A stretch of DNA of 64,000 bases, taken from Candidatus Jordarchaeales archaeon. GTDB taxonomy: Archaea > Asgardarchaeota > Jordiarchaeia > Jordiarchaeales > Freyrarchaeaceae. Position numbers and translations under genes: made by a program. The stretch spans positions 319,673-383,672 of the forward strand of contig JAWAHN010000003.1 in the NCBI GenBank assembly GCA_038889235.1, in the 5' to 3' direction. Positions 548 to 23,093 of the stretch are shown one piece after another. Under the pieces are notes generated by a model. That model saw nothing but the letters and a program-made list of their open reading frames with translations, made no database searches and was not told the origin of the DNA. Numbering within the stretch: position 1 is the stretch's first letter; each line of letters begins with the position of its first letter.

Positions 548-1096
548 TTAATACTTGATGAAGTTTTTTCCTGGTTCGTCGCAGACAGGGCACCTGTAGG
601 GGGGTTCTCCGACGTGTATGTAGCCGCAGACTGGGCACACATATATTTCCTCTGGCTGCATGTCTTCTCCTTTTTCAACGTGTTTCAGCGCGTTTCTGCA
701 GGCGTTGGCATGGCTTTCTCCAACTTGAGCCAACTGCGTGAAGATCACATATGCCCCGGGGTTTCCGCTTTCAATCGCAGTGTTCGCTGCTTCTATGTAC
801 TGCTTGGTTTCGTCTTCGACATTTGCACACACGTTCAGGTTTTCCCTTGTGGTGCCGACGTTAAACCCCACTTCCCCCCTGAGTTTTTCGACGTCTTCTT
901 TTGTGGCGTCCCTTCCGTAGTAGAGGTGGAAGAAAAGATTTAGGTGTATTTTCTCAGCGCGTGAAAGGGCCTTAAACATTCTGGCGACGTTTACGTAACC
1001 TTCGTCTACTGCTTTTTTCTCTGCCCCCGCGTATAGGAGGGCTGCTTTTAGCTCTGTGAGCATACCCTCGAAGATTAAGTCTTCGAGTTTACCCAT
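548..1096 (-). CDS. rbr: Rubrerythrin
   Basis: A cytoplasmic non-haem iron peroxidase that reduces hydrogen peroxide in anaerobes, using electrons passed through its rubredoxin domain. The 182-residue protein has an N-terminal ferritin-like four-helix bundle with the expected acidic/His ligands (ELKAAL, SRAEKIH, QVGESHAN). It ends in a rubredoxin-like knuckle with CPVC G at residues 154-157 and CPVC at 169-172. The short spacing of the two CxxC pairs is typical of rubrerythrin. The start codon lies three bases after the stop of the longin-like gene upstream (1100-2968), so the two are probably co-transcribed. This predicts an oxygen-sensitive, anaerobic lifestyle. Confidence 0.93.
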   Translation of the reverse strand: MGKLEDLIFEGMLTELKAALLYAGAEKKAVDEGYVNVARMFKALSRAEKIHLNLFFHLYYGRDATKEDVEKLRGEVGFNVGTTRENLNVCANVEDETKQYIEAANTAIESGNPGAYVIFTQLAQVGESHANACRNALKHVEKGEDMQPEEIYVCPVCGYIHVGEPPYRCPVCDEPGKNFIKY

Positions 1097-1099
1097 GCT

Positions 1100-2968
1100 T
1101 TATCCTCCACGGCTTACAACTATCTTTTCTGCTATTGACGCTATGAAGGGGGAAGAGGTTTCCTTCAGCTTACTGACTATGCTTTTCGCCGCCTCGACTC
1201 CCTGGCTTGTTCCGCTTAGCATGTAGAACCTGACGGCCTTCAGGAGCTCGATATCGTGTACGATTGGGGTGTCTCTAAAGAGCTCTGCGGCGGATTCTAT
1301 GCCGTAAGCCACCTGCATGAGCAAGTTCTGTTTGACGCGTTCAAACTCCACGAATAGGGCCGTGTTGCCTATGGCGTCAAGCATGTCGACATAGTAGTGG
1401 ACGAAGTGGTATTCGTTGAAGTTCCAGAATTCCTCCATTTCTGGGCTAGCCAGTTCTATCACGAGGTTTGGTACGTCTGAGAGGAAGATGCCCTTTTCGG
1501 CTGCTAGTCTCGATAGGACGGAGAGGAGGCCGGCGAGTGAAACATAGTACATGTCGAGCATCACCCTATGGGTTTTTCCTAACCCTATGAGCCACTCGGT
1601 CTTGCTCCTAGCGTAGTCGTAGTACTTATCAAGCCGTTTATTGACAAACTCGTCTCCTAACTCCAGCAGTAACCTCAATATGAGGTTGAGCGCAAAGTAA
1701 ATGTTCACGGCCTTGTACCTGTTTGGGTAGTAGAGTCCCTTGTCGACCAGCTCGTCTCTGTAGGACTCGAACAGCTCTAGGATTTGCTTTAAGAGTTTGA
1801 CGCCATCGTCTGGTAAAATGCTCTTTTCCAGTAACCCCCACACTAGAATGAACTGTAGGACATGGAAGTATACGTAGACCTCGGGAGACTTTCTCTTATA
1901 GGCTTCGTCGAACTCCCTCTTGAACCTCCCGTAGAGCGAGAAGACCTCGGAGATGTCCTTCGGTCTTTTGGTTAGTATGTCGAGGAGAAACTTTGTTTCA
2001 ATGGTTAACCCATAGAGGTAGCTTGACTTCCCCTTATGCTTTCTTTCGAGGAAGTCTAGGAGCGGGCCGTACGGCAACGGGGTAAGCAAAATGGAGTACA
2101 CATCAACCTTTTCTCCGCTGAGACCCCTGAAAAACTCCATCTGCTTTTTAACGAATAACTCTCTCCTCCTATTATAGGCGCCCAGCACGAGGAAGGATTC
2201 AAGCTCAGCCTTCAGAAACTCCCTAGCCACTTCGTCCTTAATGGATTCTATTACCGTGTTTATTTCGTCAAGCGGTGGCGCCTCAACTTCTGGGTCGAAT
2301 GAGTTTAAGGTTAGCGCCGCCTTAGCGTAAAGTATCTTCGCCAGTTCTCCACTCTCTTTGTCGTCGAAAAGTGAGGGGGCTGCCTCGACGACTCTAGAAA
2401 AGTCCGCTTTGTAGTATGCATCCACAAGTTCTTTAAGTGTTACCCTGCCTGTGAAGAGCTTCCTTATCTTGCCCAGAATTCCCGGCTTGTAAATTTTGGG
2501 CTTCACCTCGGCGAAGCCTAGTTTCATCCCTTTCCTGACATCCAGTCCTGCGAGTAGGACCTCGGCAAGCCTCTTCACGGAAAGAATTGACGGAGGAGAC
2601 CTGAAAACCACCCTTTCCACTTCTCCGATGACGCGCTGTTTGAGTTCGTCGTCAAACTGGATGCGTAAAGGATCAACACCAGTCCTGTCCAGCCGAGTAA
2701 CGGCCTCGTCGCTTATCTCGATAAGCCTGTCATCCCTCACATCGCTTATCATGACAAGGTTAAACTTCCTACCAAATGCGAAATAGAGATGTAGGTTTTC
2801 AAGCTCAACGTGCCTAACTCTCGACTTGAAAACCTCTTCGACAACTCTTCCTATCGCCACCACTACGCCGGAGAAAAGTACCTGATCAGACTCTAGGAGG
2901 ACACGAACAAGCTCCTTGGCAACCAGAGGAGTTCCACCTTCATCTAGCAATAGGTAGCCGAGAATCAT
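1100..2968 (-). CDS. Longin-like domain plus helical-repeat protein, copy 1
   Basis: A 622-residue cytoplasmic protein of unknown function, paralogous to the protein at 20128-22026. Residues 1-100 (from MILGYLLLDEGGTPLV) alternate strands and helices in the pattern of archaeal longin/roadblock-like regulatory domains: an N-terminal 'yLLd..GtPlv' strand, a helix with VVVAIGRVVEEV, then strands ending LVMISDV. The rest is alpha-helical and TPR-like, with a conserved block near residues 225-265 (ILYAKAALTLNSF) also present in the paralog. I moved the start from 3001 to ATG 2968 because GGAGG lies 8 bases before it and the paralog begins at the same residue. Longin domains often bind small GTPases or scaffold complexes; that role here is inferred. 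Confidence 0.8.
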   Translation of the reverse strand: MILGYLLLDEGGTPLVAKELVRVLLESDQVLFSGVVVAIGRVVEEVFKSRVRHVELENLHLYFAFGRKFNLVMISDVRDDRLIEISDEAVTRLDRTGVDPLRIQFDDELKQRVIGEVERVVFRSPPSILSVKRLAEVLLAGLDVRKGMKLGFAEVKPKIYKPGILGKIRKLFTGRVTLKELVDAYYKADFSRVVEAAPSLFDDKESGELAKILYAKAALTLNSFDPEVEAPPLDEINTVIESIKDEVAREFLKAELESFLVLGAYNRRRELFVKKQMEFFRGLSGEKVDVYSILLTPLPYGPLLDFLERKHKGKSSYLYGLTIETKFLLDILTKRPKDISEVFSLYGRFKREFDEAYKRKSPEVYVYFHVLQFILVWGLLEKSILPDDGVKLLKQILELFESYRDELVDKGLYYPNRYKAVNIYFALNLILRLLLELGDEFVNKRLDKYYDYARSKTEWLIGLGKTHRVMLDMYYVSLAGLLSVLSRLAAEKGIFLSDVPNLVIELASPEMEEFWNFNEYHFVHYYVDMLDAIGNTALFVEFERVKQNLLMQVAYGIESAAELFRDTPIVHDIELLKAVRFYMLSGTSQGVEAAKSIVSKLKETSSPFIASIAEKIVVSRGG

Positions 2969-3173
2969 CGCGAAAACCTCCGGCGAAAGCAGAAACCACA
3001 TTAACCACTCTTCTATTTAACTTTTCTCTCACACTTTTTGAGAGAGCTGAAACCTAGATTCAGAAAGCTCCCTGAAAGTGACTGGAAACAAGTTTGTGAG
3101 CGTTTTCCTATTTAGGGCAGCGGCGCCGAGCAATGGGGTTTTTCGGTGAAAAGTGTTCGCGGCACTAATGCGC

Positions 3174-13754: not shown

Positions 13755-14249
13755 TTAGATTTCGAGCCATTCTTCAGCGGGATTTACGACCTTAACATTG
13801 TATTTTTTCCCGATAGTCAAGAAGTGTTTGTCCAGTGAGTAAACCACGTTAACGTAGTTTTTCACCGGGATAAAGCACAGGAAGTCCCACACGTGGATGC
13901 CAGTCTCCTTGCAGGCTTCAACAGACTCCTTTACGTGTCCTAGGCTCGTCGGGATTTTTACTATTCCGTCGTCTTCCATTATTCCCACAACGATTCTTAG
14001 GGCTTCATCTAGGGGAACCCTGTAGCCTCTAAAGGCGAGAACATGGAAGATCTCCGCAACCTGGTGCAAAGTCATATATATTCTGAGTTTTTCAAACTCG
14101 TCCTCGAAAAACCTTCTGCAAGACTCGTGAAGCCTGAAGGCCCTCTCGTAATCCTCCTTCGATCTAAACTTTTCCATGGCGGGTCTTTTCTTCGCTATGC
14201 TCCAGACCTCCGTATCGACGAAGGCCCTAATCAATATCTTCTCCCTCAT
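13755..14249 (-). CDS. PIN-domain ribonuclease, VapC-like toxin
   Basis: A 164-residue PIN protein. The first catalytic Asp is in ILIRAFVDTEVW, the middle acidic helix carries TLHQVAEIFHVL, the third acidic site is in HVWDFLC and the last in VYSLDKHFL, followed by the final strand YNVKVVNP. PIN toxins cleave tRNA, rRNA or mRNA with Mg2+. I choose ATG 14249 rather than 14279 because it begins just before the first strand and gives a short 23-base overlap with the ribbon-helix-helix antitoxin gene upstream. The insert between the first two motifs is longer than in most VapC proteins. Confidence 0.78.
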   Translation of the reverse strand: MREKILIRAFVDTEVWSIAKKRPAMEKFRSKEDYERAFRLHESCRRFFEDEFEKLRIYMTLHQVAEIFHVLAFRGYRVPLDEALRIVVGIMEDDGIVKIPTSLGHVKESVEACKETGIHVWDFLCFIPVKNYVNVVYSLDKHFLTIGKKYNVKVVNPAEEWLEI

Positions 14250-14448
14250 ACTCTCTAAGGTCTTCAGGCTCCATGCCATCGACAGGCTTCAAAATAAGAT
14301 CCTTAACACTTAACCCTCTCCGTCTTGACAGGTAATTCAGGAGAGCGTCGACGATCAGGTCCCTCATCGGTCTCCCCTCCTCAACAGCCCTCCTTTTAAG
14401 TTCCCTGTAAAGATCGTCCGGTAGAACAATGGTTGTCTTCACACCCAT
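14227..14448 (-). CDS. Ribbon-helix-helix antitoxin (CopG/VapB-like)
   Basis: A 73-residue protein whose N-terminus KTTIVLPDDLYRELKRRAVE is a textbook ribbon-helix-helix strand and first helix, followed by RPMRDLIVDALLNYL as the second helix. The acidic C-terminal tail (EPEDLREYEGEDID) is the likely toxin-binding part. Its gene precedes and overlaps the PIN gene, forming an intact toxin-antitoxin operon that probably autorepresses through this protein. Confidence 0.82.
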   Translation of the reverse strand: MGVKTTIVLPDDLYRELKRRAVEEGRPMRDLIVDALLNYLSRRRGLSVKDLILKPVDGMEPEDLREYEGEDID

Positions 14449-14867: not shown

Positions 14868-15323
14868 CTATTCCAGTATTTCGTCTAGTTCGGATACGCG
14901 TATGATTGATACCTCTTTAATGTCTTCGAAGTGTTTTTCGTTGTCGAGTACTACTACGGGGGTTGGGCTTTCCTCTGAGAGACGTAGTGAGAGGGCTGCT
15001 GAGGAGAGGTCCCCCCACGGTTTTTCACCATATTTGAGCTTTAGCATTCCGAGCTTAATTGTCGTTTCGGCGTCGTAGACCACGCTGAATGTGGCGTAGG
15101 CAGACCTGACCACCTGTTCCGGCTTCACGTTCCTGGCGGTGCCTTGCTTCTCCTTTATGATCCTGCTCATTACTTTATATGCTTCTGCAAGGTTGTTTGG
15201 GTGCATGTATATTCTAATTTCACCGTTCTCATGCTTTAGGACGGCTTTCCTAACTTTATCGGAGCCGGCCTCGCTGGTGAATAGGAGTAGGAATGGTCCC
15301 GTATCGAAGACGAGCCTTTTCAC
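14868..15323 (-). CDS. vapC: PIN-domain ribonuclease, VapC-like toxin
   Basis: A 151-residue PIN protein beginning KRLVFDTGPFLLLF (first Asp), with NNLAEAYKV (Glu), PWGDLSSAALSLRL (Asp) and VVVLDNEKHFEDI (last acidic site). It is a predicted Mg2+-dependent RNase toxin. Its ATG overlaps the stop of the AbrB-type antitoxin upstream by four bases, the usual translational coupling of VapBC operons. It is the second intact PIN module within 2 kb. Confidence 0.85.
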   Translation of the reverse strand: MKRLVFDTGPFLLLFTSEAGSDKVRKAVLKHENGEIRIYMHPNNLAEAYKVMSRIIKEKQGTARNVKPEQVVRSAYATFSVVYDAETTIKLGMLKLKYGEKPWGDLSSAALSLRLSEESPTPVVVLDNEKHFEDIKEVSIIRVSELDEILE

Positions 15324-15604
15324 CCAGAACCCCGCCGAAGAAGCTCTTTCTCTCTTTGATCCTCGCCTCCTCCCTTCAACTCTTTTTCTCGCTCCTCAAG
15401 CAGGACTTTAGTGGCTTCCGCTCCTTCAAGGAAGCCGAAGAGCTCAGAGATTCGGGGGGTCCGCTCGATCAATAACCTAGTTTCATCGATGGGTCTAAAG
15501 GTGACCTCAACTCCCTCCCTGTAACCGTACTTCTCCCTTATCTCCTTCGGTATAACCACTTGGCCCTTACGGGAGATCTTCGCCTTATACTCCATAAACT
15601 TCAC
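15320..15604 (-). CDS. vapB: AbrB/VapB-type antitoxin
   Basis: A 94-residue DNA-binding protein. Residues 5-45 (YKAKISRKGQVVIPKEIREK onward) are a swapped-hairpin AbrB domain. The rest is a charged tail (LLEEREKELKGGGEDQREKE) likely to wrap the toxin. It lies immediately upstream of and overlaps the VapC gene by four bases. It probably represses its own operon. Confidence 0.87.
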   Translation of the reverse strand: MKFMEYKAKISRKGQVVIPKEIREKYGYREGVEVTFRPIDETRLLIERTPRISELFGFLEGAEATKVLLEEREKELKGGGEDQREKELLRRGSG

Positions 15605-18880: not shown

Positions 18881-19843
18881 CTAACCCCTGCCGGCTTTAA
18901 CTACCCTTCTTTGGAGCCACGAAGTGTACCTTCCGGGGGCTACCGCACCTAAGTACAACAGCACTACTGCTGTTACCATGAACACGAAGCCGGCTAACAG
19001 AAGCACGGTTAAGCCGCCCAGCAAGGTGTCAAGGACGTTGAAGAGGAAGAATACCAGCAGCATAACGAAACCTAGAGCAATAGTTTTGAGCCTAGCTGCC
19101 TTAATGCGGTCTTTCTCGTCTGAAGCCTTACCACGCAGGAAGACTATCACCTGGATTATCGCGACCAGGTTGACGAGCAGCAGTAAGCCGTCCGAAATAA
19201 GCCCTATGTCTGGGTGTAGTTGTATGCTGAGTTCTGGGAGGGGGTCTAGTGCTCCGAGCACTCCTGCCTTCAGCTGCATGTCCAGCAAGCTAAACCTCGG
19301 AGCGTACGCTCCAAACCAGTTCATGGGGGATACCGTTACGAGTAGGAGTATTGATAGTGGTGTGAGTACTGTTGCTTCTCTTTTGATTCCTGGGTCTTTT
19401 TGCTCAGCCATCCAGTGGCCGAACTTGAGCATGAAGTAAGGAGCTATGCCTGCAAAAGCCACAGCCAAAGGGGCCCAGTGGGAGAAGGCGGGCGAGTGCC
19501 AGGAAAACGGGTTAAACGACATTCCTGTGGCTATGAAGGATCCTAGCCCGATAGAGGTGGCTGCGGCTCCCAGCGCGTAGAATGCTAGTGCTAGGGCGAA
19601 GTACTCTATTACGCGTCTCCCCACCCCAACAAGCGGCCTTGAAGCCCTGTAGGCAGAAAGTGCAAGGACAGCTGCCACTGCAGCTGTTGCGCCATAGGTG
19701 ATACAGAAAATCCATAACTTTGGATCGGCAATAGATGGTATGGCTCCGAGAGCAATCTCTGTGGGAACAGTGTAGGCAGTGTAGGCGACCGCGAGAGCGA
19801 GGACGACTGCTGTGAACAGTACAGTGTAACCTTTCGGCGTCAC
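18881..19843 (-). CDS. Polytopic membrane protein, paralog A of an inverted pair
   Basis: A 320-residue integral membrane protein of unknown function with about eight hydrophobic helices (near residues 8-28, 43-63, 81-106, 123-140, 165-180, 215-235, 255-275 and 280-300). It is closely related to the protein at 22140-23093. The central region is identical in sequence (LKFGHWMAEQKDPGIKREAT; NWFGAYAPRFSLLDMQ), and so is the underlying DNA in three blocks, while the N- and C-terminal ends differ. It diverges from the longin-like gene at 20128 across a 280-base promoter region. A role with that protein at the membrane is inferred from synteny. Confidence 0.78.
   Translation of the reverse strand: MTPKGYTVLFTAVVLALAVAYTAYTVPTEIALGAIPSIADPKLWIFCITYGATAAVAAVLALSAYRASRPLVGVGRRVIEYFALALAFYALGAAATSIGLGSFIATGMSFNPFSWHSPAFSHWAPLAVAFAGIAPYFMLKFGHWMAEQKDPGIKREATVLTPLSILLLVTVSPMNWFGAYAPRFSLLDMQLKAGVLGALDPLPELSIQLHPDIGLISDGLLLLVNLVAIIQVIVFLRGKASDEKDRIKAARLKTIALGFVMLLVFFLFNVLDTLLGGLTVLLLAGFVFMVTAVVLLYLGAVAPGRYTSWLQRRVVKAGRG
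19208..19622 (-). repeat. Left arm of a 415-base near-identical inverted repeat
   Basis: The reverse complement of this interval matches 22361-22775. Three blocks are base-for-base identical: 19556-19622 with 22361-22427 (67 bases), 19343-19452 with 22531-22640 (110 bases), and 19208-19321 with 22662-22775 (114 bases). The stretches between are diverged but aligned. The arm lies inside membrane paralog A. Identity at synonymous positions indicates recent gene conversion. Confidence 0.92.
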
Positions 19844-20003
19844 AATCTCTCACCTAATAGTTTACGTAAGAGGGGAGGATGCATAAAAAGCCTCCTTTTT
19901 CTGATGCGTGTAAACCCCGGGGAGAAGAGGGCTGTCCCGGGTTTCACGCGAACACAAACTCTATTTGGCACCGGGTACCAGCCAGGACGCTTTAAACCAT
20001 TCG

Positions 20004-20013
20004 ATATATATTT
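20004..20013 (+). promoter_or_regulatory. TATA-like element upstream of longin-like copy 2
   Basis: ATATATATTT at the middle of the divergent intergenic region, preceded by a purine-poor TTTAAACC context. It would give a leader of roughly 90 bases before ATG 20128. It could also serve the opposite strand, because the sequence is nearly symmetric. Confidence 0.35.
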
Positions 20014-20127
20014 ATCAAGACATTTTCTAGAGATTTCTATATACAATGCTTCTACGAGATGAGTGTCGAGTCGAGTTAGCGGAGTCCGAGGAAGAATAGA
20101 GACTTTAGAAACAGCGTGGTGGTTGCG

Positions 20128-22026
20128 ATGATAATAGGGTACATGTTGCTTAGCGCTGGGGGAATACCGGTAGTTACTAGCAGTGCTATGGATATGATGG
20201 GGGATATGGAGTCCCTGTTCGCGGGAGCTATGACCGCCATAAATAGTATAATAGCGGAGGTCATGAAGACTAGGGTTAGGTATGTGAGGACGGAAAAATA
20301 CCACCTGTACTTCAGCTACTCTAGTGAGTTGACACTTGTGCTCATCTCTGAGGTTGAGGAACCCAGGCTGCATCAACTGGCTGACGCCGCGCTGAGCGAG
20401 GTGTTAAGGACGATCGATGACCCTTCAAGGCTCGCGTACGACTCTGACGCACAGAACTTCGTAAGCAAGGTGATCAGGGAGGTCCTCGCTAAGCGTCTAC
20501 CTCCAATATCGGTCATAAGCAAGGTTGCAGATATGCTAGCCGCATTATCAGATAGTATTAGAGGAGGCATGAAGCTAGGTCTGGGCAAAATAATTTTCAT
20601 TCCAAGGGAGTTGAAAGTGGAAAAGGTGGAGGTGAAGGCTAAGGGGAAGGGGGACATCAAAAAACTCGTCGAACTGTTCTTGAACGGGGACTTAGAGAGC
20701 GTCGTCGAGGAGGCGCCGGCGTTTTTCGAGTCGGATCTGGCGAGGATCCTCTACGCTAAGGCTGCCTTAAAGATAAACTCTTTTCCGCCAGAGGTGAAGG
20801 CCCCGTCTCTAGATAGGGTCTACTCCGTTATACTAAGCGTGAAGGACGACTTGGCAAGGTCTCTTCTCGCGGCGGAGCTGAGGAGGTTCCTAGAGGCGGG
20901 AACATACTATGAGAGAGAGAAACTGATTGAGGAAAAACTCTTCGAGCTAAGTGAGAAATTTAAGTTGGACTACGAGGGCGCCGGAGCGGTTTACATAGCC
21001 CTAACGTTGCCGGCGGGGAGAAGGGAGCTGCTAGAACTGGCTGAGCAGCTCATCGGAGAGCAATACCAGTATTTCAGGCAAATTTTGAAGACTACTCCCT
21101 CACTTCTGAAGTCATCCATCCTGAGTATAGGGGAGACAGAGGGGTGGAGCGCCGCTGTCGGTAGAGTGAAGTACGAGTCAAAGAGAGTGACACCGGGGCC
21201 GGTGGAGGCATCCTACAACTACCTCCTAGCCTTTCAGCTCGCCATACTATGTGGCTTAGTTGAGGGGGGCTTGGACTTCGAAGCCGGCCGCGAACTGCTC
21301 AGCGACGCCATAAGGGAAGCTGAGAAGAAGTATGATTCTCTAAGAAAGCTGTCTAAAAACGTTCCCAGCGACGTGCTGGCGGCAAACTACTGGTTCACCT
21401 ATAACGCTCTCACGGGCATACTGATGTTCACTCTTCCCGCCGAAGATATAGAGAAGGAGATGTTAAAGTATGGGGAGAGGATAGCTGAAGTAGTAAGCTG
21501 GCTTATGGATGCAGCTAAGAGGAACAGGATTTCAGTGGACATGTACATCTTGGCAATGGCTGGGATGCTAGCGGCATACTCGCGACTGATGTTCCTCCTA
21601 GGGACCCCGATCCCGGACCTTCCATACTACGTTAAGCAGTTAGCCATCCCCGAGCTGGAACGCATATGGGACTACTCCCCCCACCACTACCTACACTTGG
21701 TCATGGACTGCCTTGAAGCATTAGGCCACACGGCAAGCTTCCTACCCATGGAAACAGCGAGGAAAAACATACTAAAGGAAATAGCAGCAAACCTGGAGGA
21801 AATATACAAGACAGCCAGTCACACGCCTGTAATGTCTATTCTCGCAGCTCTAAGCGCCACAAGGTTTTACGTCCTATGCGGAGACGAAGAGGCAAAAGAG
21901 AAAGCAAGAAAGCTTGCGGAAAAAATCTCGGAGGTAAACGAGTTCTTCGCCTCACTTGTTGAAAAAACCATAAACATAGATAAAGCCCTGAGGAGGAAGC
22001 CGTCCCCATACGACGTGTTTGTATAG
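20128..22026 (+). CDS. Longin-like domain plus helical-repeat protein, copy 2
   Basis: A 632-residue paralog of the 1100-2968 gene. The N-terminal domain begins MIIGYMLLSAGGIPVV and runs through AMTAINSIIAEV, YHLYFSYSS and LTLVLISEVEE, the same strand-helix pattern as copy 1, as in archaeal longin/roadblock-like modules. A helical-repeat region follows with the shared block ILYAKAALKINSFPPEV. I prefer ATG 20128 over GTG 20116 because GGTGG lies 5 bases before it and copy 1 starts at the equivalent residue. It ends 113 bases before, and on the same strand as, membrane paralog B, and diverges from paralog A. It sits between the two arms of the inverted repeat. Confidence 0.8.
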   Translation: MIIGYMLLSAGGIPVVTSSAMDMMGDMESLFAGAMTAINSIIAEVMKTRVRYVRTEKYHLYFSYSSELTLVLISEVEEPRLHQLADAALSEVLRTIDDPSRLAYDSDAQNFVSKVIREVLAKRLPPISVISKVADMLAALSDSIRGGMKLGLGKIIFIPRELKVEKVEVKAKGKGDIKKLVELFLNGDLESVVEEAPAFFESDLARILYAKAALKINSFPPEVKAPSLDRVYSVILSVKDDLARSLLAAELRRFLEAGTYYEREKLIEEKLFELSEKFKLDYEGAGAVYIALTLPAGRRELLELAEQLIGEQYQYFRQILKTTPSLLKSSILSIGETEGWSAAVGRVKYESKRVTPGPVEASYNYLLAFQLAILCGLVEGGLDFEAGRELLSDAIREAEKKYDSLRKLSKNVPSDVLAANYWFTYNALTGILMFTLPAEDIEKEMLKYGERIAEVVSWLMDAAKRNRISVDMYILAMAGMLAAYSRLMFLLGTPIPDLPYYVKQLAIPELERIWDYSPHHYLHLVMDCLEALGHTASFLPMETARKNILKEIAANLEEIYKTASHTPVMSILAALSATRFYVLCGDEEAKEKARKLAEKISEVNEFFASLVEKTINIDKALRRKPSPYDVFV

Positions 22027-22082
22027 GCAGGAAATCCTCTCTTCGAGAGAGCAACGCAGCCGGGTGAAAGAACGTCTCAAAT

Positions 22083-22093
22083 AAAACTATATA
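22083..22093 (+). promoter_or_regulatory. TATA-like element for membrane paralog B
   Basis: AAAACTATATA lies about 50 bases before GTG 22140, and a GGAGG ribosome binding site follows at 22128-22132. The spacing fits a short-leader transcript, so paralog B can probably be expressed independently of the longin-like gene upstream. Confidence 0.45.
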
Positions 22094-22139
22094 GACGCCG
22101 GCTTTTTTGTAAAGGTGAGTTGAGTGTGGAGGAGTTGTT

Positions 22140-23093
22140 GTGGAGCCTAAGGGTTATGTTGCGCTTTTTGCTGTAGTAGCCTTCGCCTTCGCGTTTGTCT
22201 ACACCACTTACACTATTCCAGCGCAGGCGGCTCTCGGAGCGATTCCTTACTTTGTTGACGCTAGAGTACGGGTTGCTCATTTTGTTTACGGGGGTATAAC
22301 TGTAGTTGCGGCGCTTTTGGCACTATTTGCCTACAAGGCTTCGAGACCCCTGGTTGGGGCGGGGAGACGCGTAATAGAGTACTTCGCCCTAGCACTAGCA
22401 TTCTACGCGCTGGGAGCCGCAGCCACCACCATAGGACTAGCATTTTTCATAATCACGGGAATGTCGTTCAATCTAACCACATGGCATGGACTCGTCTACC
22501 CCTGCTGTATTCCCGTGGCAATGATGTTTTCAGGCATAGCTCCTTACTTCATGCTCAAGTTCGGCCACTGGATGGCTGAGCAAAAAGACCCAGGAATCAA
22601 AAGAGAAGCAACAGTACTCACACCACTATCAATACTCCTAGTAGCAATGACGCTTCCTACGAACTGGTTTGGAGCGTACGCTCCGAGGTTTAGCTTGCTG
22701 GACATGCAGCTGAAGGCAGGAGTGCTCGGAGCACTAGACCCCCTCCCAGAACTCAGCATACAACTACACCCAGACGTAAGGCTCCTCGCAAATGGTCTAC
22801 TATTATTCGTCAACTTGGTGGCATTAATCCAGATAATCGTGTTTTTGCGTCGTAGAATTGTGAGTGAGACGGAGCACTTGAAGGCTGCCAGGCTCAGAAC
22901 GGTACTATTCGGCTTCCTAGCTATGCTAGGATTCTTCGCCTGCTACACACTTGACGCGTTGATGGGAGGAGGTTACACTGTCCCATTGTTTGTTGGCTTC
23001 GTCTTCGGCATAACAGCTTTAATATTGTTGTATATTGGAGTGGCGGCTCCCAAGTGGTACACGTCATGGATCCAGAAAAGAGCAAAAAGTTAA
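22140..23093 (+). CDS. Polytopic membrane protein, paralog B of an inverted pair
   Basis: A 317-residue integral membrane protein with about eight hydrophobic helices, colinear with paralog A (18881-19843). The start GTG has GGAGG 7 bases upstream. The central third is protein- and DNA-identical to A, while the segment around residues 108-132 (TGMSFNLTTWHGLVYPCCIP versus FNPFSWHSPAFSHW) and the termini have diverged. That suggests variable loops with a homogenised core. No known transporter or sensor signature is visible. The gene context is the longin-like protein directly upstream. Confidence 0.78.
   Translation: MEPKGYVALFAVVAFAFAFVYTTYTIPAQAALGAIPYFVDARVRVAHFVYGGITVVAALLALFAYKASRPLVGAGRRVIEYFALALAFYALGAAATTIGLAFFIITGMSFNLTTWHGLVYPCCIPVAMMFSGIAPYFMLKFGHWMAEQKDPGIKREATVLTPLSILLVAMTLPTNWFGAYAPRFSLLDMQLKAGVLGALDPLPELSIQLHPDVRLLANGLLLFVNLVALIQIIVFLRRRIVSETEHLKAARLRTVLFGFLAMLGFFACYTLDALMGGGYTVPLFVGFVFGITALILLYIGVAAPKWYTSWIQKRAKS
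22361..22775 (+). repeat. Right arm of a 415-base near-identical inverted repeat
   Basis: Counterpart of 19208-19622 on the opposite strand, inside membrane paralog B. The distance between arms is about 2.7 kb and contains the entire longin-like gene plus the N-terminal coding parts of both membrane genes. Recombination between arms would invert that segment and exchange the two N-terminal parts. Confidence 0.92.

Follow-up and report, generated by a model that had tools for sequence, protein, structure and literature searches.

Three tracts of base-for-base identity were found between two membrane genes, A and B, that lie on opposite strands on either side of a longin-like gene in the genome of Candidatus Jordarchaeum (Asgard; the genus is placed in the Asgard class Jordarchaeia, PMC9723677). 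The tracts are well supported as recent ectopic gene conversion, a known process of which this locus is a clean case. The whole account, to which a probability of about 0.78 was assigned, is that B is the conserved partner of the longin gene, that A is a duplicate belonging to this lineage, and that the three tracts were converted by homologous-recombination repair. Conversion between A and B is an ordinary process that can be seen clearly here, and data of this kind are scarce for uncultured Asgard archaea; the gene set adds weight, and the recurrent pairing of longin and 7TM genes is more interesting than the recombination event itself.

Identical tracts in two inverted membrane genes

The stretch of DNA analysed (the window, 64,000 nucleotides) carries gene A at 18881–19843 (minus strand, 320 aa), the longin-solenoid gene at 20116–22026 (plus strand, 636 aa) and gene B at 22140–23093 (plus strand, 317 aa). 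The divergent starts of A and the longin gene are separated by 272 nt (19844–20115), inside the segment that a flip would move, and the longin gene is separated from B by 113 nt (22027–22139). Three exact inverted pairs were located, with the A copy on the minus strand and the B copy on the plus strand: block 1 (67 nt; 19556–19622 in A, 22361–22427 in B), block 2 (110 nt; 19343–19452 and 22531–22640) and block 3 (115 nt; 19208–19322 and 22661–22775). The first two lengths agree with those in the earlier note, which had put the third at 114. Divergent stretches separate the blocks, of 103 nt between blocks 1 and 2 and of 20 nt between blocks 2 and 3 (19323–19342 on the minus strand in A, 22641–22660 on the plus strand in B), and the wider arms (19129–19696 and 22287–22854) are 82% complementary. 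No further inverted match of at least 50 bases, nor any direct one, was found in the 64-kb window, and no third copy of the A/B sequence was found elsewhere in the same genome. Elsewhere in the window, two adjoining small genes at 14868–15604 (minus strand) resemble, by eye, a PIN-domain toxin and an AbrB-type antitoxin, and a further PIN-like frame lies at 13755–14279.

Proteins A and B are 66% identical. Within the blocks, none of the 91 codons capable of synonymous change differed silently between the two genes, against 50 of 86 same-residue codons outside them (58%; Fisher p 5.6e-21), and the block edges were sharp in the nucleotide comparison; the silent-site contrast marks the blocks as the result of recent recombination, neither of chance nor of selection on the protein. 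A tandem pair of 7TM genes in another Asgard genome (G137), at an amino acid identity (69%) near that of A and B, served as a control, and its longest identical run was at most 16 nt. The blocks are 100% identical between A and B, yet share only 65–77% DNA identity with the orthologue in a second Jordarchaeum genome (G003); they are closer to each other than to the orthologue, while the flanking sequence ties B to its orthologues. Old duplication followed by uniform divergence was ruled out by the same contrast, the blocks having no silent divergence at all and the remainder having it at about 58% of codons. As a fallback, the earlier note had proposed recent gene conversion that preserves a shared core between diverging ends, and this is borne out by the silent-site contrast, the sharp edges, the control pair and the tree described below.

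The identity could in principle reflect constraint on the nucleotides themselves, by an overlapping antisense gene or an RNA element that holds the blocks identical with no recombination; antisense open frames at 18924–19439 (plus strand) and 22544–22813 (minus strand) do overlap blocks 2 and 3. Block 1 lies outside these frames, however, and the DNA identity of the blocks to the G003 orthologue does not exceed what the remainder of the gene would lead one to expect, which rules out antisense coding as the cause and leaves constraint of this kind a negligible chance. A faulty assembly or polishing step, in which reads from A and B were mixed in near-identical parts to give a false identity, was considered improbable. 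The tracts, at 67–115 nt, are shorter than the size of a read pair, and the genome is a draft (2.14 Mb in 8 contigs, contamination estimate 3.3%), but the locus lies inside a 470-kb contig, all three genes are open, and the 20- and 103-nt patches with their many differences were kept distinct; mixing would also need prior near-identity. In the 20-nt patch, which holds many differences, A is nearer to the G003 DNA than B is (0.71 against 0.48, over 21 nt only).

Gene conversion was not seen as a habit of the family. In ten tandem 7TM pairs the longest identical run was 10–16 nt in all but one, and the 50-nt run in the exception (G109, locus L097) arises only because its two open frames overlap, and was rejected as conversion. 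The homogenisation is particular to the A/B locus.

Descent of A and direction of conversion

The longin gene and B form a conserved operon, found also in two relatives: in G003 and in a genome of another Asgard family (G036) a single B orthologue lies downstream of the longin gene and co-directional with it. The longin gene of a further Jordarchaeum genome (G001) sits at a contig end. The other three Jordarchaeum genomes yielded no A, which might have been missed, as they are 70–83% complete. Outside the blocks, sites in the N-terminal part and loop favoured B over A as the closer relative by 27 to 6 against G003 and by 21 to 8 against G036, and those in the C-terminal part by 18 to 11 (G003; alone not significant) and 20 to 8 (G036). 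A tree of the outside-block parts paired A with B (AU 0.97, against 0.008 and 0.04 for the alternatives). The N-terminal part on its own does not resolve the tree, and an older duplication is the less probable reading. In the tree of all outside parts the A branch was 0.64 long and the B branch 0.16. Given the grouping, the long A branch and the orthologue-like sequence of B at both ends, A is most simply taken as a fast-evolving, lineage-specific duplicate.

The shared block sequence is as near to G003 (63/97 identical) as B is elsewhere (0.59; A outside the blocks, 0.46), which favours B as the donor. The log likelihood ratio for B as donor was 6.5, on an estimate that presumes like constraint within and beyond the blocks, and conversion most likely ran from B into A.

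Conversion carries less risk for inverted than for direct neighbours, since recombination between direct copies deletes the intervening DNA. In the account that we prefer, A would be a copy of B made within this Jordarchaeum lineage, with a rate of evolution since then about four times that of B. The two nearby inverted copies would then have engaged in ordinary homologous-recombination repair, presumably resolved for the most part with no crossover, by which three tracts were copied, probably from B to A. Helices 3–5 and the long loop would thereby have stayed alike in both proteins, which drifted apart in their N-terminal and C-terminal helices and in one loop. Counting against this account, several short tracts, or repair in patches, must be assumed to explain the divergent stretches of 20 and 103 nt. 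With lower confidence, conversion may have been tolerated or favoured where a shared core contacts the same partner.

Consequences of a possible inversion between the arms

The segment was inverted in silico at the midpoint of each block in turn, and in all three cases both membrane genes stayed open, giving chimeras 320 and 317 aa long. After such a flip the longin gene points left. Downstream of it still come the unchanged 113-nt gap and then the beginning and N-terminal half of B; the exchange affects the C-terminal parts of A and B alone. The earlier note had expected the longin gene to become co-directional with A instead of B, a misleading statement that applies to the C-terminal tail of A only: the longin gene and the 5' half of B stay together and the C-terminal parts change places. 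A flip cannot switch the partner of the longin gene at the level of the promoter or of the N-terminal part.

No site-specific recombinase was found in the 64-kb window and no recombinase family match on the contig that holds it (C3); a tyrosine-integrase match was obtained only on contig C2 and serine-recombinase matches on C1 and C2. Inversion by general recombination is possible. If a crossover between the arms occasionally inverted the 2.8–3.5 kb segment, both orientations would be present in populations with no dedicated recombinase at work. Inverted arms with exact identity over 67–115 nt and the open chimeras at all three blocks are consistent with such flipping, which has precedents in the Saccharomyces flip/flop region, where homogenised inverted gene pairs cause repeated re-inversion (PMC9731477), and in Wolbachia insertion sequences, where short terminal inverted repeats recombine (PMC3004938). 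The yeast precedent has 4-kb repeats, however, and one orientation alone was observed here, in the one genome that represents the species. Both ends of B are orthologue-like, as expected if no net exchange of ends has taken place; as a frequent switch would show the present phase half the time, this weighs only about 2 to 1 against flipping. Taken together, recurrent inversion, the main proposal of the earlier note, is not supported and was judged unlikely.

Far less probable still is a programmed switch, that is, a regulated inversion (phase variation) that swaps the C-terminal parts of two membrane receptors and so changes their specificity. Its geometry would resemble the exchange of gene ends by shufflons, in which the interior stays constant and the tails are exchanged, and the C-terminal parts of A and B do differ (55/104 identical). 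Against it, the recombinase matches lie on other contigs (C1 and C2) and none is near, no short conserved inverted site was seen and the identical tracts lie within coding regions, and no relative showed the arrangement with A.

The longin–7TM gene pair and comparison with known systems

An AlphaFold2 model of the longin-solenoid protein (pLDDT 82 overall, 57–82 in the N-terminal longin part) has an N-terminal fold of two strands, a helix, three strands and two helices (residues ~5–100), followed by an alpha-solenoid. The best solved fold matches were to AP sigma subunits, CPLANE Fuzzy, Mon1 and Sec22b (best E 0.0045, none below 0.001). No curated longin family matched above its cut-off (Fuz_longin_1, 13.1 bits against 26.1), and no PDB sequence matched the longin-solenoid alignment. 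'Longin-like', the name used in the earlier note, is fair on the modelled fold and the solved-fold matches, with the sequence match below cut-off. A second longin-solenoid gene lies in the same window at 1100–3001 (minus strand), followed by a ferritin-like/rubredoxin-type gene at 548–1096 (minus strand); this pair recurs in G029 and G047 (L054, 5047–7496; L057, 5259–7715) at about 52% and 42–43% identity.

The model of B has eight membrane helices (pLDDT 80; loop 182–210 low), and according to the alignment the first of these is absent from most relatives, which thus have seven. On this model block 1 corresponds to helix 3, block 2 runs from the last part of helix 4 through a loop into the first part of helix 5, and block 3 is the long loop between helices 5 and 6. 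From the basic residues of the loops, read by eye under the positive-inside rule, the C-terminus, the loops at 68–74, 147–153 and 242–246 and the block 2 loop are predicted to be cytoplasmic, and the long loop of block 3 would face outward. No Pfam or NCBIfam family fitted A or B, no PDB sequence matched them, and no relatives of B were found in named genomes or viral contigs. A fold search placed rhodopsins and GPCRs at the top (best E 0.017, TM-score up to ~0.5); at this E value, and with no conserved lysine in the last helix of the family alignment where rhodopsins bind retinal, membership of either group was ruled out. By its sequence profile, found in 116 of 228 Asgard genomes and 38 of 62 genera, the family to which A and B are assigned is an unnamed, Asgard-wide 7TM family.

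Fifty non-redundant 7TM sites were inspected, picked mostly by score and contig extent with ten added for side-by-side copies, and a longin profile was built from the longin parts and widened by iteration. A longin gene was the immediate neighbour at 29 of the 50 sites, a rate that, the choice of sites being non-random, is not that of a random sample. The profile matched 31 of 453 open reading frames, every one of them beside a 7TM gene (gap −10 to 360 nt), and no other frame of the inspected loci. The longin gene lay just upstream of the 7TM gene and co-directional with it (often overlapping), or head to head with it; no case of a longin gene downstream of the 7TM gene was seen at the inspected sites. 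Two 7TM genes stood in tandem at ten sites other than the A/B locus, nine of them behind a longin gene, and the Jordarchaeum order 7TM–longin–7TM combines both arrangements. Longin–7TM pairs, often longin–7TM–7TM, were recorded at loci L095–L105, L111, L043, L049, L050, L052, L058, L064–L074, L083, L090–L092 and L109. The G137 tandem pair (L085/L094) has no longin-profile neighbour. In G147 the neighbour of the 7TM gene (L075, 2420–3220, minus strand, 267 aa, starting MIVILSHFHTKIGPSIF) gave no match to the longin profile; by eye it may be a distant longin- or roadblock-type protein.

The longin–7TM and longin–7TM–7TM sets in other Asgards suggest a longin protein working with two 7TM subunits, and A and B are best read as its paired membrane partners, in which conversion would keep a common core. 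On gene order, and with lower confidence, the longin protein may work at the membrane with one or two related 7TM-type subunits. A broader reading joins a membrane module shared across Asgards (a longin protein, with or without alpha-solenoid, on one or two 7TM proteins of the new family) to inverted, homogenised arms in this Jordarchaeum that could exchange C-terminal ends by inversion. As a whole it was given slightly less than an even chance; its membrane-module part is supported by gene order. No description of the recurrent longin–7TM pair was found in the openly accessible papers searched.

Shufflons and invertible type I specificity loci are bacterial systems for the invertible exchange of gene ends. 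As in these, a flip would keep the interior while two genes swapped their C-terminal parts; unlike them, the present locus has no adjacent recombinase, short sites, second orientation or intact/silent cassettes. The Saccharomyces flip/flop region (PMC9731477) is alike in that related inverted genes flank others and are homogenised within one lineage, and differs in its 4-kb repeats and two orientations, against coding tracts of 67–115 nt and one known orientation here. Microbial rhodopsins and GPCRs share with the 7TM family the seven-helix architecture, a putative common-core orientation and the top fold matches, but the family has no significant fold match, PDB sequence match or conserved last-helix lysine to link it to them.

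Asgard longin-domain proteins have been reviewed alongside roadblock and TRAPPC3 proteins, in a text that makes no mention of transmembrane partners of longin proteins (PMC10933270). Asgard genomes encode many longin and roadblock proteins, and partners are known for few of them because small GTPase genes, according to a survey of one genome (PMC10933270), generally lie outside operons with their genes. The longin–7TM pair offers a concrete candidate membrane partner for one longin group, and such a candidate bears on the origin of eukaryotic-type membrane-recruitment machinery. The present protein resembles the reviewed longin-domain proteins in its N-terminal domain, modelled as a longin fold, and differs from them, as do its relatives, in its long alpha-solenoid fusion and in its pairing with a 7TM-type membrane protein.
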